From contig CM020620.1 in assembly GCA_009829735.1 (NCBI GenBank), forward strand, positions 2,669,447-2,733,446: a DNA stretch of 64,000 bases. Reading direction: 5' to 3'. A model generated the notes under the pieces. That model had not been told where the DNA came from. It made no database searches and was given only the letters and a program-made list of their open reading frames with translations. The DNA is from Pyropia yezoensis. Its lineage: Eukaryota > Rhodophyta > Bangiophyceae > Bangiales > Bangiaceae. Within the stretch, counting starts at the first letter, position 1, and the number at the start of each line of letters is the position of its first letter. A program made the translations under genes and the position numbers. Shown here one piece after another: positions 38,182 through 50,737 of the stretch.

Positions 38182-38268
38182 AGCGCAAGGAGTGTGGAGG
38201 CAGCTGGTCCAGCGCAAGGAGTGTGGAGGCAGCTGGCACAGCGCAAGGAGTGTGGAGGCAGCTGGCCC
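38182..38268 (+). repeat. 29-bp tandem repeat, 3 copies
   Basis: Units at 38182, 38211 and 38240 each start AGCGCAAGGAGTGTGGAGGC and differ only in the last bases. Confidence 0.92.
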
Positions 38269-39146
38269 ACCGTTGGCTGACTTGGGTGGCGCCAGTCGAC
38301 CGGAGGACTCCCACCGGGAGCCGCTCCCGTGCTTGTGCGGTTGGTGCACGCGCGCGCGTTGCGCCTCAGCCACGCGTGGTCTGACAGGGGGGCTAGTACG
38401 GCCGTGCACGGCCACCGTGGACGGCCGTGGCAGCTATTCACCGCCTCTGGCGACGCAGTAGCCGAGACGGCGTCGGAGCCCGCGGTGAGCCTGCTCTCAC
38501 ACACCCCGACACGCACGCCTGCAGCGATGGGTCGTGGGGGGGCCGTCGCCGCCGACGCCGCCGCCGTCGCCGCCCCAGCGGGTTTTCATGCCGCAGGCAG
38601 TGGTTCGGGCGGCCGAGCCGGAAGCTGAAGGTCGGGAGGCGGCGGCGGGGGCGGGCGGCGACGTTCATGGCCGCGAGATGGCGACGGGATCGGCGCCTGA
38701 CGGCGGGGCAGCAACGCTAGACTCAGCACCGGACGGCGGGGCGGCCGCTGCGCGAGGGCGACGCGGCAGCACTGCAGGTGCGGGCGGTGCGGTGGAGTTG
38801 GGGGAGGGGGGGATGACGATTTCGCTGTCGCGGCGCTGGATGAAGCGGATGTCGCGGCGGCGTGCGCGCTGAACCCTGTCGGAGGGGGTCGAGCGCACGC
38901 ATCCTTACCGGCAGGCGATGGGAGCGGCGGCGGCGTGCCCCCGCCTGGCTTGCCTTCGACGCGCGTGCCGTAAGCGGTGGCGGCGCTCTCCGCGGCGCAC
39001 TCCTTCCTCGGCCCCCTGTGGGGGGGGGGGGGGAAGTCGTGACAAGGGACTCCACGCGGGCCCGTTCCAGGTCTTGTGGCGGGCAGTTGCGGACAGTGGA
39101 CCCCTCTCGGCGATGACATTGACAGGTCGGGCTTGACATGGACAGG

Positions 39147-39151
39147 CATGG
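39147..39151 (+). repeat. Left target-site duplication CATGG
   Basis: The five bases immediately before the left LTR are identical to the five bases after the right LTR. A 5-bp duplication is typical of Ty3/gypsy integrases. Confidence 0.95.
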
Positions 39152-39620
39152 TGTGGCAAACACCACTTACACATACGGCATCCAAGTTGGGGCGGTGTAC
39201 AAGGGCTGCCTTCCGTGTCGGGGGAACCGGAAGAAGTGCAAGTCGCACACACTCTGTCCCTGTTGTGGGGCAAACCCCCCACTGACAAACAAGAGGATGG
39301 TGTGTGGTCCAACAGTTTCTTGGTCGGGACGGGGACGCAGGGCCAAGCCCCGCTGTCCCTCCCCTTATCCCCCCAGGGTCCCCTCAGAATCTCGCCACTC
39401 AGAATCTCCCACCCCAGCACCTGCCCACCGGGCCACACGAAAATTCAAGACGATAAATGCAGAAAACCCTCAAATCCAAGTTGGATTTACCACTAAGCTA
39501 ACTATCCCAAACTTAGGGAATACGGACCCAAATGCAGGGGGAGGAACGGATCAGGCTAGTGGCCTGCCGCCCCTTGCATGGCACGTGTTGCCCCCGTACC
39601 TGGGGGTCAATACTGCCACA
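39152..39620 (-). repeat. Left LTR (3' LTR in element orientation)
   Basis: 469 bp starting TGTGGCAAACACCAC and ending CTGCCACA on the plus strand. It contains the 17-nt palindrome at 39472-39488. Differences from the right LTR by eye are five scattered single substitutions and one adjacent pair. Confidence 0.96.
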
Positions 39621-39633
39621 CTCCCCTCTCCTC
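39621..39633 (-). promoter_or_regulatory. Polypurine tract
   Basis: On the minus strand it reads GAGGAGAGGGGAG directly beside the 3' LTR, as needed to prime plus-strand DNA synthesis in LTR elements. Confidence 0.85.
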
Positions 39634-40181
39634 AGTTCCGACCGACCCGGTCGGCCCTGTGAGGGGGTGCGTAAACGCACGTCTCAGCGTTGGGGGCGCG
39701 ACTTGCTGTCCCCCATTGAGTTCGTAACGCGGATGTGGAGGCGGTCACGTTGACCGCCCCTCTCCCCAAGCTTGCCCACTCGGCAGCTTGCTCTCCCCGG
39801 TTCTCACTTCACCATCACCACCACCCCCCCTTCACCTTCCACTGGGCCGCCCCACGCTGGGGAGGCCACCCGTCTACCCACGATCCGATTCCCCCTCAAC
39901 TCGAGGCGGTTCTCGTGCCGCTGTATCCAGGGCGTCTCTCCCCAACTTGGGGAGAGCCATGGCGACCCCGGGGGTGGAGACGGACTCTCTCGACGAACGT
40001 ATGGAGGACACCCCCTACGGTGCAGCGCCCGCCGGGACCTTCGGCCGGGGCTCCGCGATCGCTCCGGGGGATGGGACTCCCGCGTCACCCGGCTTTGAGT
40101 TGAAGGCGGGATCTCCCCCGGAGGCGGGACAAGTTGTCCCGCGTGAGGCCTTGGGGCGGTGGTTTTACCCCGCTTGGCCTC
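39634..40181. other. Element-internal noncoding segment between polypurine tract and opposite-strand ORF
   Basis: In element orientation this is 3' noncoding sequence; in the other orientation it is the 5' flank of the extra ORF. It contains a 21-nt perfect odd palindrome (39936-39956) and a 19-nt one (40124-40142). Confidence 0.6.
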
Positions 40182-40187
40182 TATAAG
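40182..40187 (+). promoter_or_regulatory. Candidate TATA box for the opposite-strand ORF
   Basis: TATAAG in the context GGCCTCTATAAGAGG lies 45-50 bases before the ATG at 40232. Initiation ~25-30 bases downstream would leave a short leader of about 20 bases. This is a motif match only. Confidence 0.5.
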
Positions 40188-40231
40188 AGGAGGGGTTGAC
40201 TGTTCTTCGCTGTGGCCGACTTGGCGCAGCG

Positions 40232-41902
40232 ATGGGTCGGGTATGGGACCGCCTACGGGAGAAGTATCCCCGTAGGGTCGGGCTCCGTGCCGGCTTCAGG
40301 ACGGACCAGTTTGCCTTCCTGGACGACGAGGAGGTCGAAGACGTACAGCGGGCCAAGGCCATGGTGGACCGCGGGGGAACTATCCCGGGTCCCGGCGACT
40401 TGCCGACCTTTACTTGGGACGCGGTGGCAACTCGCCCCCCGTACCTTCACGAGGCCGATCCGCAAACTCATCACTTTGATGAGCGGATGGAGAAGGACTT
40501 CCGGCGAGGTCCCTACTTGGTGACATCGGCTCAACTTGAGTTTCCTCAGCAGTCTGCTACCAGTAAGGAGCAGTGCCATCCGAAGAAGCCCGAGTGGTGG
40601 CCTCAAGTTGAGGTCCCCTACGGGTTCCCAGCGGTGCTGCCACGCTTGCTTGACCACTTCGGCTCCGTCATGTTGACGGCTGGCCCTGATCACCTGGTGT
40701 GGGCCATGTTGGCCACCCAGTGGCTCCTCGAGGTCATGTCGACCTGGGTGTCTTGTGTTCAGCGGCGGGGGATGCTCTGGCATCTCCCCCTCCGGCTTAT
40801 CCAAGGTTTGGAACAGCTCACCCCTCAGCTAGTTGCTGAGGGGTGCTCATCAGGACAACTCACTCTACTGGAGGAGATGCTCCGCCTCCACAAGTTCATC
40901 GAGTGGGAGAGCATCGAGCACAAGTTGCGCCGCCCCACTCGTGGGCCCAAGGACGATGGCGCACTTCGCCAGTTCGTATGGGTCGCTCGTGAGCTTTACG
41001 ACGGTCGTGTGGTCCTACAAGAGGGGTTGGGCATCGGGGACTACCCGTATGCCCCGGGGGTGGATCGCCACACTGCGCCACCCCCGGACAAGGCCATAGT
41101 TATGGCCGTGGCCTCACATGATGACCATATGACTCAACCCACTGCGGGGGCCCCAAGTCGGGGTCGCAGTTACACCCGGGTCCCGCCACCTCGGCGTGCC
41201 CCTCCGCTTCCTCCTGTCCCCTACCAGCCGCACGGGGACATCCCGATTAGCGTGGCCGTTGAGTCGTCCACCCCGGTGTCCCCCAACTTGGGGGCCACCC
41301 TCCTGACGGTATACCCCAAGTTGGTGTTACCGCCGACGCCTCTAACCTCAGAGATGATGATCACCACGTTGGTGCGCACCATTTCCTGGTTGGCCGCGTC
41401 GACCGCAACCCTTCGAACTTCCGAGACTCCTCAACTTGAGGAGCGCGTTCGTACTGCAGTGGCGACCGCGAGTTGCGAGTCGGTGGCGGAGTTTATGACG
41501 GCCGAGTTGGCTCGCATTGGGGCTATTATGCCCCATCCAGCCCCACTTGGGCGTGGCAAACGTCGTGCGAGCCGGGCATACTCGCCTCCTCGCCGTCGTC
41601 GCCGACGCTCGAGGCGCTCTCCCTCCGTGTCGGAAGACGAGCTGTCTTACTCCGTCTCGGAGTCCTCGACTCCGTCAAAGTCGGAGTCGGTCCGGCGTCT
41701 GCGTCGCCAACTTGCGCGCGAGACTAAGCAGAAGAGCAGCCGCGGTCGTCTCCACTTGCGCGACCGTGAGGGGCGCGACGGGTCCAACTTGGAGCCGCCG
41801 GCCCCCCCGACTGGTGGGGAGCGTTATCGCCGGGGGTCTCGCCGCTCGCCTCCACGTGAGGGCGAGGGCCGTGGGGTTGGAGAGTCTAGCATGCATGCCT
41901 AG
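40232..41902 (+). CDS. Accessory ORF of the retrotransposon, opposite strand to gag-pol; unknown function
   Basis: 556 uninterrupted codons starting MGRVWDRLREKYPRRVGLRA. I do not recognise a family. Residues about 1-140 are mixed and charged, with acidic LDDEEVEDVQ. About 140-280 is rich in Leu/Trp/Met and probably helical (LVWAMLATQWLLEVMSTWVS, LTLLEEMLRLHKFIEWESIE). About 290-390 is Pro-rich. The C-terminal ~110 residues are strongly Arg/Ser-rich (SPPRRRRRRSRRSPSVSEDE), as in RNA-binding SR tails. No signal peptide or clear membrane anchor is seen, so an envelope-like role is not supported. It sits between the polypurine tract and the end of pol, 111 bases from the pol stop. It remains fully open although gag and pol in the same copy are broken. 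Confidence 0.7.
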   Translation: MGRVWDRLREKYPRRVGLRAGFRTDQFAFLDDEEVEDVQRAKAMVDRGGTIPGPGDLPTFTWDAVATRPPYLHEADPQTHHFDERMEKDFRRGPYLVTSAQLEFPQQSATSKEQCHPKKPEWWPQVEVPYGFPAVLPRLLDHFGSVMLTAGPDHLVWAMLATQWLLEVMSTWVSCVQRRGMLWHLPLRLIQGLEQLTPQLVAEGCSSGQLTLLEEMLRLHKFIEWESIEHKLRRPTRGPKDDGALRQFVWVARELYDGRVVLQEGLGIGDYPYAPGVDRHTAPPPDKAIVMAVASHDDHMTQPTAGAPSRGRSYTRVPPPRRAPPLPPVPYQPHGDIPISVAVESSTPVSPNLGATLLTVYPKLVLPPTPLTSEMMITTLVRTISWLAASTATLRTSETPQLEERVRTAVATASCESVAEFMTAELARIGAIMPHPAPLGRGKRRASRAYSPPRRRRRRSRRSPSVSEDELSYSVSESSTPSKSESVRRLRRQLARETKQKSSRGRLHLRDREGRDGSNLEPPAPPTGGERYRRGSRRSPPREGEGRGVGESSMHA

Positions 41903-42013
41903 TTGGCAGCTGCCTTTGTTGTGAGAGTGTGAGGGTTTGGGCTGTAGTTAAAAGCCACTCTGCGTACCACTTCGACTTGAAGCACTCTCTTGGCACTGTT
42001 GTTCGGCCTTCCC

Positions 42014-45000
42014 TCACGTTGAGGGAGGGCTGTTAGGGTCTATCTCATTCCGGGCACAGTAGGCCCGGACCTTCTCAGCGGGAAGGTCCTCCACATACTC
42101 CCACGTATCATCCTTGGCTTTGTAGCCAAACCAACGCACCCTGAACATGAGGCGGTCAGTGTCCTCATCCCAGCCGTGGTCGATGAACTTATCGAACACG
42201 TACTCCTGCGGGCCCTGTTTGGCCGCAGGCAGTAAGGGGAGGCGCCACGCTTCCAACTCTCGCGCCCAAGCTGGGTCGCCTGCAGGCGGTGGTGCAACTT
42301 TGACCACGTGCTGTCCGTTCACTGTGCGGACCCCATCGTCACTTTCGATGGTGAAGCGCCGCCCATCAGTACGAAGGACCTGGTACGGCCCCTTCGTCTG
42401 GAATACCAACTTACCCCCAGTTGGGGTCTGTGAGTGGACCAATACCCAGTCACCCTGCTCGGGGACATGCTTGGCGCTGCGCACCTTTTTGTCAAAGGTA
42501 CGCTTGTAGCGCTTTTGTGCTTTGTCCATCTCAGCCCTGACTTTAGGGATGAGGTTTTCAAGCCTAGCAGCGAACTCCGCCTTACTCTCAGTAGGAGTAG
42601 GCGTCCTGCCACCATCCTCCCTAGTTGGGAGCGGCCGCCGCACGGCAATAGACCGCGCGCGACGGGGGGTCACAAAAGCGAGGGGTACTTCCCCCGTAGA
42701 TGAGTGAACCTGCGAATTGTAGGCAGTGGTAAGAATAGAAATGTATTGGTCCCACGTTTTCACGTGCTCACTCACATAGTGGCGCAGCTGCCTAACAATA
42801 GTTTTGTTGAAGTGCTCCACCTGCCCATTAGTTTGTGGGTGGTAGGGGGTGGCATAGTTTGCCCGCACCCCCAACATATCCAGCACTCCCTGAAACAGTA
42901 CGGACGCAAATTGCGGTCCATTGTCCGATAGTGTACTATCCGGAATGCCATACGCGGCAACCCAGTGATCTAGGAAGGCTGACACGACCGACATGGCCGT
43001 GATCTCTGCCAGTGGGATCGCTCGCGTAAGTTTCGTGAAGTGGTCACAGATAACCAGGAGGTACTGGTTGCCCTCCTCGGTCACTGGCAGTGGCCCAAGG
43101 ATGTCCATCGCCAACGCGGCAAAGGGCTCCTTGGCCGGGAGCAATAGCATAGCCGTAGTAGGCCGCCGTTCCATCAGACGGTTCTGTGCACAACTTGTGC
43201 AGGCAGCCACCCAACTGTAGATGTCCACCACCATGGACGGCCAGTAGTACCTGGTCCTCAGGGTCCGGTACAGTTTACTAGACCCCAGGTGTCCACCTGT
43301 GGGAGCGTTATGCTCCCTCTCAAGGATACTGTCCTTGAGGGATGCGGGGACGACAAGTTGTTCGGTCCCCTGGAATACCCCCCTCCTCATGAGGAGGCCA
43401 TCGTCTCCCAGAAAGAACCGCGTCTCCGCCACTGTATCCAGTGTATCCCTCTGCGACTTGCAGAAGGGATCCTCGGCCTGGGCCTTCACCACCTCGTCCA
43501 GGGACAGGGGCAAGTACTTCTTGTTCCCTGGCGCCTCGGGGTTCAACGCCTGACCCGAGCGCGTGACTACCCCCCCGATGGGGATGTCCTCATCGACTGG
43601 GTTAGTGTCCAGCCCCTCGGTAGGTACCCGAGAGAGGCCGTCGGCAAGGGCATGTTGCCTGCCAGGTCGGTACTCAATATCAAAGTTGAAGGGTGCCAGT
43701 CGCACCCTCCACCGGTTGAGACGAGTGTTCGTACAGTCCGTCTTGAAGATGAACTGCAACGCGTGGTGGTCACAGCGGATGAGGAACTTCTCACCCTCTA
43801 GGTAGTGACGAAGTGACGTCACCGCCCACACCACTGCGAGTCCCTCCAACTCGGTGACTCCGTAGTTCTTCTCGGCCGAGTTCAGCCCCTTGCTGAAGTA
43901 TCCCACCGGCAAGTACTCCTTGTCCGGCTGCTGCTGAAGCAACACACAACCAAGTTGGTCGTAGCTAGCGTCCACATCCAGGATGTAGTGGCCTCCCAAC
44001 CTGGGAATAGCCAGGATAGGGGGCTTCAGCAGAAGGTTCCGAAGAGCCTCAAAGGATTCCTGCTCCACCCGACTTGGGGGAGGCAGGTTCTTCGGTAGCG
44101 TTGAGCTCACTAACTCATTCAACGGTTTCGCCACCTTGGCGAAGCCCTTGGTGAAACGTCGGTACACGTTACACATCCCGAGGAAGCTCCTCATCTGGGT
44201 CTGGGTCCGGGGGTACTGAGCCTTACGGATGGCCCTCAAGTTTTTCTCGTTGACACTGAGACGCCCCGGACGGACAACATGTCCCAAGTATTCCACCTCT
44301 TGAGTGAAGAGGTGGCACTTACTCGCCTTCAGTGACACACCGGCGTCAGCAAGTAGCTTGAACACCTGGCCAAGATGGCCAATGTGCTCCTCCGGACTTC
44401 GGGAGAACACAATGATAACGTCTAGGTACACGAGACAGATCTGCCACCGTACTCCGGCCAGAATCATGTCCATAGCGCGCTGGAAAGTTGCCGGCGCGTT
44501 ACACAGGCCAAACGGTAAACGCTTGCACTGGTAGGTACCACAGTGACAGGTAAAGGTAGTTTTATGCCTGTCCTCCGGGGCAATGGGAATTTGCCAGTAC
44601 CCCGCGTTACAGTCCAGGGTAGGGAACACGTTCGCCTCCCCCAGAGAGTCCAGACAGTCGTCCATCATAGGTAGGGGATAACTGTCCTTCACCGTGCTCT
44701 CGTTCAGCTTACGGTAGTCGATACAGAACCGGGGGGTCCCATCAACTTTGGGGACGATTACCACCGGACTCGCCCACTCGGCGTTACTGGCCTCGATCAC
44801 ATCGAGGGCCTCCATGCGAGCAACTTGCTCCTTGACGAGGGCCCTTGAGCGGGGTCCTCACCTGTACGGTTGTTGGCGTATAGGGGGTGCACCGGGCTTC
44901 AACTCGTTCCGGTGTTGGGTGGCTCTCATGAGTCCCAATTGGCCATCCCACAACTTGTGATATTGGTCCAAGAGGCGTTCAACTTGAACCCTCAACCTGG

Positions 45001-45997
45001 GTGGGACACCCTCCATGTTCACATGGGGCCGAGGAGAGGCGGCCGACTTGGCTTGATGCTTCTCCTTTCCGGGCTTCGGGTCGCTACTTGCGCCCGCGTT
45101 GAGGGTGACCGCTACTACCGGTCCCTCGTGTTGGTCGATATAGCCGAACTTGGCTCCCGACTTGAAGTACTTGGGCGACGAGCTCAGGTTCATCACCTGG
45201 ATCCTCCACGGGACTCCGGCTTTGGATTCCATTGTGCCAAGGGCGACATGTACTTGGTGCTTGCGAGCAAGACGGGGGTGAGGGTGCACCAACCCGTTCC
45301 CCGTATAATCAGTTACAACGTCAACGTGCGCCACCGAGTTGGGGGGCAACGTGACCTTACGGGCTAAACGCAGGGTAGCAGTAAACCCTTCTCTCACAGA
45401 GCAAACAGGCTTCGACTGTGAGACTGTCACAGGAGCCACAGACTTTCCCTTACCAAGGATGGGGATGGTTTCCCCATTCATCAACTTGACCCAATACTCA
45501 GGGCCACAAATCAAAGGCACTTGTGTAACAACATAAGGGGTACCCAGAAGCAGGGGTACCGATATATTCTCAACTACTCCATAGGTCACGTCGACCTCAT
45601 GGGTCCCCAACCTAGCTGGTAGGGTCACGGCACCAACGATGGGAAGTACCCCACCATTGATATCGATCAGATGGTCAGCTTTAGACTTCCAGCGTTGGAG
45701 CTTCATCTCCTTTGGTAATAGCGACTTGCGTATCAAGGAGGCTCCTGACCCGTTATCAAGTACAATACGGGCACAACAGGCGCGGCCGGGGGCAAGTTGC
45801 ACACGTCCAGCCACCTGGAAGTTCTCACCCGTCAGCACCGCGATGACCCGACGTGGGTTTACGTTCTTGGGGAGTCCTACCCGAGGTGGGCGGACTCCCT
45901 TAGGTCGCCGCAGTATCCGGCACGGTTGGTTCGTCCCCTTGACCCACTTGGCCGAGGCTGCCGTTGTGAGCTTCGGACGACCAGCTCCAACGGTCAT
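42014..45997 (-). pseudogene. pol: pol: protease, reverse transcriptase, RNase H, integrase, chromodomain (interrupted)
   Basis: A single frame of 1,328 codons is interrupted by one in-frame TGA at 44858-44860, between the protease/RT-start part (379 aa) and the rest. The protease motif is LDNGSGASLI. RT has ASPVVIVPKVDG, LDCNAGYWQIPI and LPFGLCNAPATFQRAM. The catalytic box reads YLDV rather than YxDD (Val codon 44417-44419). RNase H begins ILDVDASYDQLGCVLLQ. Integrase has the HHCC region ending CTSCAQ and the D,D,E residues in AMDILGPLP, LSDNGPQF and YHPQTNGQVEHFN. The C-terminus carries a chromodomain (FRVRWFGYKAKDDTWEYVED), which in chromoviruses can steer integration to marked chromatin. 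The pol ATG overlaps the gag stop as ATGA at 45994-45997. A dead catalytic Asp plus a stop means this copy cannot supply active RT. Confidence 0.93.
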
Positions 45998-47939
45998 TCG
46001 TTTTCCGCCGACTTGGGGTCCGAATTTGAGGACGAAGGGGAAGACGACGAGTCCGAGGACGACGTGTCCGCCCCCTCCGCCGAGGGTGTGGCGACCGCCA
46101 CCACCGGTCGGGACCCACCCTCGCGGCGTGAACGTACTTCGTTCGTAGCCGACTTCTTACTCGCATTCCTAACAAGTTGTTGGATGCGTTTACTCAACTT
46201 GGGGCAATCATACGCCCAGTGTCCATCGGAGTTGCAGTTCCAACACCGATTATCAGTTCCCGGAGGGGTCTTCCCAACTGGGGAAGACGAGGAGATACCC
46301 TGGGAAGTTCCCACGGCAGCTACCACCCTCTCCTTCCGGATTCGGCGTGCCTCTCTCAACTCTCTGGCCTGGCGCGCCTCCTCCCGTTCCTTGGCCAACT
46401 CGGCTTGACGCTCCTGGCGTTGTTCCTCCCGCAACTTGCGGTAGGCCTCGCCTCTGCGGTAGGCGAACCTAGCCAACTCGGCCAGGGTCGCCCGGGCAGT
46501 GTTATGCTCCCGGGTCTCCATCCGGACTGACCAATGGAGTCCCTCCACAAACCGACTCTTCACCACAGCTTGTGGATGAAGAGACCCACAAAGATTGTTG
46601 AGCTTACGGACTCGCTCCGCAAAGGACAACTCGTCCTCTGCCTCTTCCTGATGGGCTTGCGTAAACTCCTCGACTTGAGAAGCCAACGCCGCTTCATCAA
46701 CCATGGCCCTAAACAACCAGTTGACTAGCTCCAAATAGGACGTCACCTCCCCAGCGCCTCCACTTGAGGAGCTGGGCATGACGGACATAAGTTCTGTCCG
46801 CAGGTCTCCCTTCGTAAACTCCTGTAGCATGTAAAAAGCCATGCCTTCACTTATGGCATTGTCGTCACAGGCTTTTGTGAAACGACGTAGGAACTCAAAG
46901 ACACGGAGGGGGGGAGTTCCATCCCACTCCGCTTTGTGCCCAAAAGAGTGAAGTGCATTCTTCTTGGCACGGCCCTGGCTCGGGCCTGGTCGGGACCATA
47001 CGCCACCGACTTGTTGTGGAGGGCGTAGGTCTCACAATCAAAGATCCCCTGGTAGACCGGGATGGCTACCTGGATCTTGGGCGGCACCTCACGTTGAGGG
47101 AACAGCCGCTGTGGCACTGGGGTAAGTTGACTCTCAGTGCCCTTAGTCTGGCGCGGCGCGCTTGGTGTAGCCGCCGGCGTTTCCGGGGGAAACTCCCCCA
47201 TGAAGGGCGTACGCCCCACCGAGTATGGTGTGGCTCCCTCGTTGGGAGTCACAGGTGTCGCCCCCTGTTCGGGGCGACCCGAGATAGGCGTGAGGAGGGA
47301 TTCCCCCTGCGCCTGCGGGCTCGAAAGCCCCGATCCGGTCTGGACATTAAGGCCACCTGGCAAACTCGCCACAATCTGATTCAGAATAGTATTCGTCATC
47401 GTGACCACCAGGTCCGGCAAAGTCTGCCGCAACACATTGGTCGCCTCCCGACGGACAGTTTCCGCGAGGAGTGGATTGACGACTCCAGTTGAGTCTCGGT
47501 CCGCCTCCGGGAGTCCACCTGAGGGGTGACCACGTTCCTCAGGGGTCTCAACCGGGGGCATGGGCGCGAGCCCATCGCCGACCAACGGAGGTCCGCCGTC
47601 CTCCGAAAGCCTAGTTGGCGGCGGCTCCAAGCCAAAGCTGGCTCCAACCCGAGTGGAACCCGCGGGGACAGTCCTCACCCCTTGGGACGTTCCCGTTGAG
47701 TATACCACACGGTGGCCAGACTCCGGCCCACCCACATCAGAAGTGTCACCCGAGTGAACTCCCGAATGAGTCGGGGTGGCCTGTTGCCCGCCCGCACTTC
47801 CAGTCCTGCTGGCTTGAGGGACCTCTAGTCCCTCTGCGACCCCAGGTAAACCCACCTGTGTCTCACCAGTATTTAAAGGCACTGAAGTACGTGCGTCACC
47901 CGTGTACTCCCCGGACGACGGGGGGTCCGAGCTAGCCAT
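45994..47939 (-). pseudogene. gag: gag (one frame break)
   Basis: The ATG at 47937-47939 opens MASSDPPSSGEYTGDARTSV, a Pro/Gly/Thr-rich N-terminal part that stays open to a stop at 46851-46853. Matrix/capsid-like coding then appears in another frame upstream of and through 46842 (WDGTPPLRVFEFLRRFTKAC, then MAFYMLQEFTKGDLRTELMS), so a frame change lies roughly between 46930 and 46990. The second frame runs through a Glu/Arg coiled-coil-like stretch (YRKLREEQRQERQAELAKER) to a CCHC zinc knuckle, CWNCNSDGHWAYDCP, and an acidic Ser tail. It ends in the TGA that overlaps the pol ATG. A frame break this far upstream would remove capsid and nucleocapsid from the first product. Confidence 0.88.
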
Positions 47940-48058
47940 GTTGACTGACGATCCGTATGACACGGTCCAAGTCCACCGTTCCTCTGAGGCAGAGGGCCCC
48001 CTACATCCGGGTGCACCCGGAGACAAAGTTTACCTCTGTCCCCTGCTGCTCCACCAAA
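47940..48058 (-). promoter_or_regulatory. gag leader and primer-binding site
   Basis: In element orientation, two bases after the 5' LTR comes TGGTGGAGCAGCAGGG (48056 down to 48041). This matches the requirement for complementarity to a tRNA 3' end (CCA preceded by CCCTGCTGCTCCA). The tRNA identity is not assigned. About 100 bases of leader precede the gag ATG. Confidence 0.7.
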
Positions 48059-48527
48059 TGTGGCAAAAACCACTTACACACACGGCACCCAAGTTGGGGC
48101 GGTGTACAAGGGCTGCCTCCCGTGTCGGGGGAACCGGAAGAAGTGCAAGTCGCACACACTCTGTCCCTGTTGTGGGGCAAACCCCCCACTGACAAACAAG
48201 AGGATGGTGTGTGGTCCAACAGTTTCTTGGTCGGGACGGGGACGCAGGGCCAAGCCCCGCTGTCCCTCCCCTTATCCCCCCAGGGTCCCCTCAGAATCTC
48301 GCCCTTCAGAATCTCCCACCCCAGCACCTGCCCACCGGGCCACACGAAAATTCAAGACGATAAATGCAGAAAACCCTCAAATCCAAGTTGGATTTACCAC
48401 TAAGCTAACTATCCCAAACTTAGGGAATACGGACCCAAATGCAGGGGGAGGAACGGATCAGGCTAGTGGCCTGCCGCCCCTTGCATGGCACGTGTTGCCC
48501 CCGTACCTAGGGGTCAATACTGCCACA
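48059..48527 (-). repeat. Right LTR (5' LTR in element orientation)
   Basis: 469 bp starting TGTGGCAAAAACCAC and ending CTGCCACA on the plus strand. It is about 98.5% identical to the left copy by eye and should drive leftward transcription of gag-pol. Confidence 0.96.
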
Positions 48528-48532
48528 CATGG
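48528..48532 (+). repeat. Right target-site duplication CATGG
   Basis: Identical to 39147-39151. The intact pair shows that no flank rearrangement followed insertion. Confidence 0.95.
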
Positions 48533-50737
48533 CTCGTTGACGCTCGGGCCACGATCGGGTACGATTTTTTTTTGTCTCTACAAAGCAACGACGATCGTCA
48601 TGTACGGCCACGCCAACCCCCCCCCCACCCATCCACACGCCCCCACTCGAGCTCGAATCCTGGTTTGGTTGCGTCGGACAAAAGGGGGCTACCTGTCGGA
48701 GCGATCGACGAATCCACCAGTCACAGCCGCTCCGACGCCACTCTGACCGGGATACAGGGACACCCTTGATATTAACCAGATGTGTGTTGAACTTCTATGC
48801 GTTCTTTATGGTAGGTTGCAGAAAAAATATACACGGAGCGCTCTTTTCTCATTCCTCCGAGAACCTTTGGGCCACAGGCCTGAGCCAATCAGGTGCCTTG
48901 ACGGTATGCCTCGGTGTAATGGGCCCCACATGAGCGGTGGTGGGTCCCATTCGGGAAACCCTGCCAGCGTGCTCATCAAGAGGGACAGCGGGAGGGGGGT
49001 ACACGCGGTGGGGTAGGCAACGACACGGGGGGTCGGGCCGGTGCTGCACAGCGACGACGACGGTGACGACGGTGACGACGACGACGACGATGGCGACGAC
49101 GGCGGCGGCAGCAGCAGTCACGGCGGCGGCGGCGGCGGCGGCGGCGGAGACGTCGGCGGCGGCGGCGACGTCGGCGGCGGCGGCGACGTCGGCGGCGGCG
49201 GCAACGTCGGCAGCAGCGGCGACGACGGCGAGTTTGGGGGGGGGAGGGGGAGGATGGCAGTGGCGGCGGCGGCGACGGCGATGGCCGCGGCGGCGGTGGC
49301 GGCGGCGATGACGAGTTTTGGGGGGGGGAGGGGGGGGATGGCGGCGGCGACGTCAGCGGCGGCGGCGGAATGGACGGCAGCAGCGACGACGGCGGGTTGC
49401 GGGGGGGGGGGGGGGGGGGCGCGGCGGCGGCGATGACGGCGGCGGCGGGGACGGCGACGACGCTGGTGGCGTCGGCTGCTGTGGCGGCCGGCCCGGCGGC
49501 CGAGGCGGAGGTGGTGACCACCCTGTCGGTGCCGGTGCCCGCGGCGCCGGCGACCCCGCGCACCTCGGTGCCCATGGTGGCGGCTGCCGTGGCCGACGAG
49601 GCGGCCATGTTGACCGCGGCTGCAGCGGCGGTTATGGCTACGATTTTTGGGGGGAGAGGGGAAGAGGTTGACGGGTTTTTTTGTTGGGGGGTAGGGCAGG
49701 GCGCCTGGTGGCGGCGGTGGGGATGGTCTTTAATCGAGGAAGGGTGCCCGCGATAGCGCGGCAGTGGTGACGGCGGCGGCGGCGGTGGCGACGTCGGTCA
49801 CCACGGCGGCGGTCGACGCGGGGGCGGCGGTGGCCATTGAAGAGGCGGCGGTCACGGCGACCGCCGCGGCAGCCATCGAGGCGGTCGCAAAGACGGCCTG
49901 GCCACGGGCGGCTGTGGTAACGTGTTTTGGGGAGGGAGGAGGCGGGGACGGTGTTTTGGGGGGGGGGGGGGGGGGGGGCGGCGGGCAGACGGCCGTGTAG
50001 ACTTTTTGGTGGGGGTGAGGCAGGCCACAGGAAGATGTGGCCACGTTTTTTTGGGCGGCGGTGGTGCCGCCGCCGTTGTGGGAGAGGGAGAGCAGGGCGG
50101 CAGGCGGCCGCGGGGGCGGTTCGCAGGGGGAGGGTGGGGGGACCGTGGGGACGCTTTGTGAGGGGGTCGGGCAGGTCGCTGGGGACGGCGGGGTCGCTTT
50201 TTTTCGCTGGGGGGTGTGGTGGCGGTAGCAGCGCCAGGGGGCGGAGGGGGAGGGTTCCAAGGGCTGGTAGCTGCCCATTTTTGGAGGGGGCGGGCTGGGG
50301 ACGTTGATGGCTTTCTGCGTTGGGGGCATTCTAGTGACGCATGGCGGCGGTGTTTTGTTTGGGCGAGGGCGGCTGCGGCGATGGCGGGCGGTTTGATAGC
50401 TGGATGGGGGGGCGGGGGGAGGGTCCGTAGGCGTAAGGAGAAACGGGCAGGGTAAAGTCATTGTTTGAATTGGAGTGGAGCGGGTGGCGGCGACAACAGT
50501 GGCATTGGTGCTAGCCGCCGGCGCCGGTGCCCGCGTCAGCGCAGGCGCTTTTCTTTCCATTGCGGGCGCAGGGGGGCAGGCGCGGTGGCTCCACTGGGCA
50601 GAAGGGATATGAGGGACGGGGCGGGTAAATTCTGGTGCAGCAGGACAGGGAGGAAGGTGGTGTCGGGATGGTGCAGGGCGTCGTGCGGGCCCTATTTTGA
50701 GGGGGGGCATGGGATGGTCTGCCCGATAGGCCAAACA
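48533..50737. other. Region without a supportable gene, triplet-repeat rich
   Basis: About 300 bases of moderate GC (AT-rich near 48770-48850) precede GAC/GGC triplet arrays and G-rich plus-strand sequence. Open frames such as 49370-49756 (+) encode Ala/Val-rich stretches (LVASAAVAAGPAAEAEVVTT) without motifs, and Pro-rich readings exist on the minus strand. No domain supports any of them. Confidence 0.5.
49051..49230 (+). repeat. GAC / GGCGGC triplet-repeat array
   Basis: Runs of GAC and GGT-GAC units are followed by a 15-bp unit GACGTCGGCGGCGGC repeated several times (about 49150-49205). Confidence 0.88.

Follow-up and report, generated by a model that had tools for sequence, protein, structure and literature searches.

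Cyanobacterial HIP1 is an even palindrome, highly iterated genome-wide; kissing loops are known from retroviruses and ColE1, where a single site or a few lie close to one end; and in dispersed viral packaging signals the stems are free in sequence. Such packaging signals are described for single-stranded RNA viruses and hepatitis B virus as multiple stem-loops sharing a short loop motif (PMC6281560, PMC7612645). Ty1 RNA reportedly dimerises via kissing loops (PMC5454406), and VANC21 motifs are described as mainly non-coding, same-orientation arrays grown by tandem repeat formation (PMC5735166). Here we analyse a 64,000-nucleotide stretch of Pyropia yezoensis (GCA_009829735.1, contig CM020620.1, positions 2,669,447 to 2,733,446, forward strand), called the window, in which a Ty3/gypsy long terminal repeat (LTR) retrotransposon at 39152-48527 carries dozens of odd-length palindromes centred on CAASTTG (S is C or G). 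We tentatively read them as about 67 dispersed stem-loops that are under selection in the replicating element and act on its single-stranded RNA or complementary DNA (cDNA).

Like viral packaging signals, the element has multiple stem-loops across its genome with a common loop motif, as judged by sequence and predicted pairing. Unlike them, it has a self-complementary, strand-equal loop consensus, no G·U signature, an LTR retrotransposon as carrier and a density of ~7.5/kb. Like VANC of Arabidopsis VANDAL elements, the motif is short, dense in its own family and rare in other transposons (here L032 and L036/L039 were tested), whereas the sites are also coding, in both orientations, non-tandem and flanked by complementary arms. 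Complementary hairpin loops are shared with kissing-loop dimerisation signals, from which the element differs in having dozens of sites and one shared odd-length loop type. With HIP1 it shares one palindromic core at very high density, but its palindrome is odd, confined to one retrotransposon lineage and has arms that vary by site. The nearest concept is the packaging signals of RNA viruses, and the nearest transposon precedent found is VANC. Our literature search, which covered few subscription journals, found neither such sites nor a loop-loop genome code described in a retrotransposon or retroelement.

The element contains 25 copies of CAASTTG, 22 of them with arms longer than 3 bases. All 15 palindromes named in an earlier note on this DNA lie exactly where it placed them, and its three decayed forms are also present, the first displaced by a few bases (42010-42026, centre 42018, CACGTTG) and the others centred at 47093 (CACGTTG, 4 of 7 arm pairs) and 47241 (CTCGTTG, 6 of 7). 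The set of sites is larger than the earlier note stated. Counting one LTR, 66 further places lie one base off CAASTTG, and their arms are paired nearly as often as those of exact cores. A composite set, requiring the core with at most one mismatch and paired arms, comprises 67 sites in 8.9 kb (36 C-centred, 31 G-centred), spaced irregularly across the element at about 7.5 per kb. As the note had observed, the arms vary between sites yet stay complementary, without a common sequence, and the sites occupy LTRs, coding and non-coding DNA and both strands. Almost none occur elsewhere in the window: CAASTTG is found four times outside the element, each time with an arm of exactly 3 and none extended. 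Across the 107.5-Mb assembly, to which all genome-wide counts refer, CCAASTTGG has 10,347 places, compared with 1,174 for its letters in reverse order, and the LTR 17-mer (39472-39488), of which it is a part, has 2,108 exact copies. Most of the remaining CCAASTTGG places are probably other sites of the same element family, because the listed places repeat the element's internal spacings.

We found that each site has two zones, one read by sequence and one by complementarity. Positions are given as k, the number of bases from the palindrome centre. When 51 places (41 with a C or G centre) were selected by their arms only, the loop emerged as C A A S T T G. Arm pairing at k=4/5/6 was 0.87/0.74/0.57 around exact cores (n=23), 0.76/0.74/0.53 with one core mismatch (n=66) and 0.34/0.41/0.36 with two (n=152), and was about background from three mismatches up (0.26/0.25/0.26 with four). 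Twelve sites with a both-sided, palindrome-keeping core change had 0-5 of 7 arm pairs (mean 1.75, chance level), and nine one-mismatch places without the C or G at k=3 had few paired arms. This dependence of arm pairing on the core word indicates that what counts in the core is its sequence, and in the arms, 4-9 bases out, their complementarity; the arm letters, though paired, vary from site to site. Pairing at distances 4-9 was present in 22, 19, 14, 11, 15 and 9 of the 25 CAASTTG sites, and at distances 12-17 in 2-7 of them. Among half-cores with at least 20 near-core places, CAA with a C or G centre ranked first, two or more of the three arm pairs at k=4-6 being present in 67 of 89 places, followed by CTA (12/21) and CGA (29/55), whose counts overlap with those of CAA since each is one letter from it. 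Only 12 near-CAA places have an A or T centre, 6 of them with paired arms; the centre is strongly, not absolutely, C or G. Even-centred CAA-TTG had paired arms at 5 of 23 near-core places, against 67 of 89 for the odd form. The core words are also in excess by themselves (23 exact against 1.2-6.7 in shuffles, 66 one-off against 20-43).

The comparison with shuffled and host sequence that the earlier note had called for was made, and the frequency in the element equals neither. In Markov shuffles of orders 1, 2 and 3, the 25 copies of CAASTTG fell to 1.2, 3.2 and 6.5 (maxima 6, 10 and 15 in 200 shuffles), those with an arm of at least 5 numbered 0.07, 0.22 and 0.47, and the 67 composite sites fell to 3.4, 6.4 and 8.6 (maxima 9, 13 and 16 in 100 shuffles). 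The left and right host parts of the window hold 6 and 2 composite sites, under their shuffle means, and two fixed stretches (L033, L034) are at or below shuffle level; no property of the whole genome was seen. The flanks of 54 host near-core places are unpaired. In a scan blind to the core, which scored a centre as a quasi-palindrome when 8 or more of its 10 flanking pairs were complementary, the element had 34 odd ones against about 4.5 in shuffles and 7 even ones against 3.8. The GC-rich left host part also exceeded its shuffles in both classes (odd 138 vs 64, even 107 vs 63), as did, to a lesser degree, the right part (odd 30 vs 18, even 43 vs 19), so that specificity lies in the core and the odd-only pattern and not in density alone. 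In the element, perfect stems of at least 6 numbered 13, 13, 11 and 8 with spacers of 1, 3, 5 and 7 (2.3-2.6 expected) and 5, 6, 2 and 5 with even spacers of 0, 2, 4 and 6 (1.9-2.8 expected); spacers of 12 and 14 were likewise in excess (9 and 10 stems), several being outer stems around bulged core hairpins.

Protein coding does not explain the sites, as the earlier note had argued, since synonymous-codon shuffling (300 shuffles per frame) destroyed them in three of five frames. Odd quasi-palindromes numbered 14 against 1.7 in pol (maximum 6 of 300), 6 against 0.5 in gag and 6 against 1.2 in the plus-strand frame. Residues at the codons of 18 pol sites are conserved like the rest (0.506 vs 0.527, among 15 of at least 120 relatives), with almost no alignment gaps, and no overwriting of coding sequence by the sites was seen in pol.

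Pairing at the sites continues past the first mismatch, with a mean extension score of 4.74 against 2.30 ± 0.55 in permutations (0 of 2000 as high). At 9 of 67 sites the stem picks up again beyond a 1x1 mismatch (1.4 permuted; 0 of 3000), and it does so past a one-sided bulge in 14 events (5.6 expected, p 0.0023). Single-nucleotide bulges were found on the left (4, p 0.048) and on the right (5, p 0.023), and 2-nt bulges (2 and 3 events) were not significant alone. Such resumed pairing past mismatches and one-sided bulges is as in a folded single strand. The predicted DNA hairpin energy of site 21-mers averages -4.1, against -1.5 for random element 21-mers. In 80-nt windows, the folding z score of the element is -0.88 on the plus and -0.99 on the minus strand, compared with -0.13 and -0.12 for two host stretches on the gag-pol-strand comparison (overall -0.1 to -0.2). 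In 60-nt windows on the gag-pol strand, z is -1.05 with a site and -0.71 without one, and other families reach -0.17 (L032) and -0.08 (L036). The value for site-free element windows suggests that further, more degenerate hairpins probably exist; TACTG, CAGTC and GAGTG are candidate loops of this kind.

To ask how the sites vary, we compared 30 copies of the element (the window and 29 loci), calling a variant shared when the minor base occurs in at least two copies and private when it is a singleton. Shared variants are depleted at k=0-6 of sites (15/455 vs 322/4322 elsewhere, p 0.0005; 0 of 1584 shifted masks as low), both in the core at k=0,1,3 (3/175 vs 334/4602, p 0.0023) and in the arms at k=4,5 (1/140 vs 336/4637, p 0.0006). 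At k=2 there is no depletion (6/70), which serves as an internal control because k=2 too belongs to the site definition. Singletons are equally frequent in sites and elsewhere (81/455 vs 716/4322 at k=0-6), with no sign of a mutational hotspot in the genome. With the minor base in at least three copies, k=0,1,3 had 0/175 (p 0.0067). Sites defined from the window alone gave 1/399 vs 152/4378, a definition biased in favour of depletion. Third codon positions are clearly depleted (1/120 vs 75/1261, p 0.011), and 16 core-only sites without arms are not (k=0-3, 5/112). In the flanks at k=12-20, shared variants are above average (33/610 vs 120/4167). Shared variants were presumably inherited through elements that kept replicating, and singletons would be post-insertion mutations. 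The depletion probably stems from selection and not from repair.

In the DNA examined, the sites are confined to a single retrotransposon lineage. Five strong sites occur within 1.28 kb of L031, an older piece that is 86% identical (0.8 kb homologous), and copies at 87-90% identity in L035 and L037 have kept many. Identity in sites/elsewhere was 0.922/0.849, 0.912/0.899, 0.889/0.870 and 0.983/0.928 in four alignments of the L031, L035 and L037 copies, and 0.617/0.684 in that of L032. The L032 family (pol 51% identical, nucleotides 69% over the best stretch) carries 6 strong sites over 9.5 kb, where shuffles give 3.5-5.6, and L036 and L039 (pol 34% and 33% identical) show no site excess; 30 loci of this other Ty3 family each align with their representative L036 for more than 1.5 kb. 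Closer families also exist: frames of 1343, 1355 and 1380 residues mark further families in this genome, and public protein sets contain relatives with 58-66% pol identity. The L032 stretch (G000:C1:8000001-8010000) holds two pol copies of its related family in the same orientation, 5.4 kb apart, which suggests a tandem or LTR-sharing array without palindromes.

Compensatory change between copies, the check proposed in the earlier note, is demonstrated once and not generally. At site 44374, a G-C pair at k=5 has become A-T: among the 100 listed of 1,008 places, 98 have G-C and 2 have A-T (one being L031 itself), with no single change. Over 39 sites and five alignments, changes on both sides at k=4-7 preserved pairing in one case and failed to in seven, and 12 pairs were present in the window only and 6 in the relative only; most copies compared are too alike for a compensation test.

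A loop read by sequence, a bulged stem read by complementarity, depletion of shared variants and restriction to one lineage, all of them observed, are in our view best explained by stem-loops that work at a replication stage. Each would consist of a closing C-G pair, a five-base loop near AASTT and a stem of arbitrary sequence with about 4-9 more pairs, sometimes bulged, and would be maintained by selection on the replicating element. They may work on a single-stranded replication intermediate, either genomic RNA or cDNA, where the repeated loop would serve for recognition by a protein of the element, with Gag/nucleocapsid as a first guess. Alternatively, the loop might be read through loop-loop contact, CAACUUG and CAAGUUG loops being mutually complementary. 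The outcome could be genome packaging, compaction or dimerisation. If this is true, an LTR retrotransposon carries a distributed signal like that argued for RNA viruses, tuned largely through synonymous codons and seldom changed in lineages that kept spreading. About a thousand copies and related families, one shown to be without sites, make the origin of the code, its reader and its action on RNA or DNA testable, and the compact motif C-AASTT-G with self-paired flanks is usable for searches in other elements.

Several results weigh against stem-loops acting on a single strand under selection. On either strand the loop consensus has the same strength (36 C and 31 G centres), which would not be expected if a protein read RNA of a single polarity, but would be for loop-loop pairing. 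The strand difference in folding z is only 0.12 ± 0.09. On the gag-pol strand, G·U pairs at k=4-6 are not enriched (14 vs 18 of the mirror type); at internal mismatches they number 8 against 4, and a second scan leans the opposite way (2 vs 6). With counts that lean neither way consistently, G·U asymmetry neither supports nor excludes RNA-only structure. The frames at 44858-46156 (1 vs 0.5) and 46851-48029 (1 vs 0.9) have no quasi-palindrome excess over synonymous shuffles, and CAASTTG in the former (4 vs 1.2) equals the shuffle maximum. Depletion of shared variants is weaker when the minor base must occur in at least three copies (7/455 vs 146/4322, p 0.035), and is not clear at other codon positions (6/335 vs 71/3061, p 0.70). 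An AlphaFold model of the antisense frame was uninformative (mean predicted local distance difference test score 38.6) and points to no binder.

Strand symmetry of the loop is the oddest feature of the sites, and implies either that they are read as DNA (cDNA hairpins, cruciforms or dimer sites) or that the loops pair together. In the latter case, C- and G-centred hairpins of one molecule would pair as dozens of interchangeable kissing contacts through which genome RNA or single-stranded cDNA condenses or dimerises. This is possible since all loops are near the self-complementary word CAASTTG, and we consider it rather unlikely.

Proposals made in the earlier note are narrowed by these data, not settled. 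The first, binding of a dimeric protein, here considered on double-stranded or cruciform DNA, is the most credible of the rivals to single-strand stem-loops, if still on the unlikely side; the protein could be element-encoded (for example by the antisense frame, with VANC-like anti-silencing) or a host silencer or architectural protein. The two-fold, strand-symmetric core fits it, as do the strong preference for a C or G centre, symmetric position weights on a fixed strand, the spread over LTR, coding and non-coding DNA in both orientations, and the lack of a G·U preference. The L032 family has no sites, and its 5.4-kb pol spacing appears to exclude an extra open frame. Variable yet complementary arms, however, have no role in ordinary dimer binding, and rigid two-fold sites do not fit one-sided bulges; both features point to self-pairing of a strand. 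Stems of 6-9 bp are also short for cruciform extrusion. The anti-silencing variant is further weakened in that VANC motifs are same-orientation arrays, mainly non-coding, unlike these sites (PMC5735166).

In the second proposal, which we judge distinctly unlikely, template switching by the element's reverse transcriptase at hairpins would copy arm onto arm, making and repairing palindromes without function. Arm copying could be a source of the arms, and would account for their lack of sequence preference, the presence of sites in all regions, family restriction, the few shared arm variants and the two-sided change at 44374. The core is harder to accommodate: its words are themselves in excess around a strict odd C/G centre, even-centred palindromes, on which strands could switch more readily, are not in comparable excess, and shared variants are also depleted at centre and loop bases, which would be hard to restore by copying arms. 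Conservation of residues at site codons, moreover, is like that elsewhere, with almost no alignment gaps.

It is very improbable that the sites are preferred integration targets of their own family with a 5-bp target duplication AASTT. The 5-bp duplication and odd symmetry agree with this, and a weak preference for palindromes is reported in plant LTR elements (PMC6911290), but the target of the window copy is CATGG, and AASTT followed by the LTR start occurs once genome-wide (the reversed-word control also once) against 2,108 LTR 17-mers, in a test that covered the LTR-start junction only. Composition, codon usage or sequence duplication as the source of the sites is hardly credible: although the left host part is above its shuffle in core-blind odd quasi-palindromes (even ones likewise), the sites are reproduced neither by order 1-3 shuffles, nor by shuffling synonymous codons in pol, gag and the plus-strand frame, nor, for core-plus-arm sites, in host and other-family controls, and paired arm letters vary by site.

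Table 1 Features of the retrotransposon and representative palindromic sites (window coordinates; a dot marks features without strand)
Feature	Position	Strand	Basis
Ty3/gypsy LTR element	39152-48527	gag-pol on minus strand	LTRs, target-site duplication, Pfam domains
5-bp target-site duplication CATGG, left	39147..39151	.	
5-bp target-site duplication CATGG, right	48528..48532	.	
LTR, 3' relative to gag-pol, 469 bp, TGTGGCA...TGCCACA	39152..39620	-	
LTR, 5' relative to gag-pol, 469 bp	48059..48527	-	
Open frame, reverse transcriptase + RNase H + integrase, weak chromodomain	42014..44857	-	Pfam
Open frame between gag and reverse transcriptase, no Pfam match	44858..46156	-	
Gag-like open frame, CCHC zinc knuckle	45994..47031	-	PF00098
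Open frame specific to the element, antisense to gag-pol, without Pfam match	40187..41902	+	
LTR site with core CAAGTTG, odd palindrome perfect over 17 bp	39472..39488	.	
Same LTR palindrome in second LTR	48379..48395	.	
Site, core CACGTTG (one mismatch), 8-bp stem	39740..39758	.	
Site, 10-nt arms, CAACTTG	39936..39956	.	
Site, 9-nt arms, CAAGTTG	40124..40142	.	
Site, 5-nt arms	40530..40540	.	
Site, 6-nt arms	40601..40613	.	
Site, core CTAGTTG, 11-bp stem around loop TAGTT	40819..40845	.	
Site, 7-nt arms, pairing resumes past 1x1 mismatch	41280..41294	.	
Site, 8-nt arms	41427..41443	.	
Site, 5-nt arms, stem resumes past mismatch	41783..41793	.	
Site, core CACGTTG, 7-bp stem	42010..42026	.	
Site in pol, 7-nt arms	43187..43201	.	
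Site in pol, 5-nt arms	43949..43959	.	
Site in pol, core CACCTTG, 7-bp stem	44127..44143	.	
Site, core CAAGATG, compensatory G-C to A-T pair in older relative	44367..44381	.	
Site, core AAAGTTG, over codons APATFQR (residues invariant in 15 aligned relatives)	44477..44497	.	
Site, 6-nt arms, identical in 86%-identical relative L031	44818..44830	.	
Site, 5-nt arms	44949..44959	.	
Site, 6-nt arms	44977..44989	.	
Site, 5-nt arms, bulged outer stem	46171..46181	.	
Site, core CAACTGG, 8-bp stem	46268..46288	.	
Site, 6-nt arms	46429..46441	.	

The element has the direct LTRs, TG...CA ends and short target duplication of Ty3/gypsy elements, and its pol domains follow the expected order of reverse transcriptase, RNase H and integrase in Pfam searches. 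The chromodomain match (PF00385, E 5e-5, 23.6 bits) is under the curated cut-off of 25.1. The pol frame is open, yet its reverse-transcriptase active-site motif deviates from relatives. From its position, the frame at 44858..46156 is presumably protease-like. For the antisense frame, which sits between pol and the 3' LTR and has an arginine/serine-rich C-terminal part, the sole homologue found is a protein 95% identical (P0121); the window copy appears interrupted, since P0121 begins further upstream than the window's stop-to-stop frame. An Rfam scan of the element gave no match at gathering scores, and in viral contigs, where relatives were sought, the patterns found none.

The element is very abundant, with about a thousand copies: a 22-base pol word with two ambiguous positions has 1,008 matches genome-wide, and at least 40 copies are 98-100% identical over 1.8 kb of pol (40 scored of 1,720 candidates). 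At G000:C1:94901-120664, four LTR palindromes form a chain with spacings of 8.9, 7.9 and 8.9 kb, which looks like neighbouring elements with common LTRs. Directly right of the element, window positions 49032-49888 consist of long imperfect CGG-type short tandem repeats, mostly in 9-bp steps, and at 38182-38272 AGCGCAAGGAGTGTGGAGGCAGCTGG is present in three copies, 29 bp apart.

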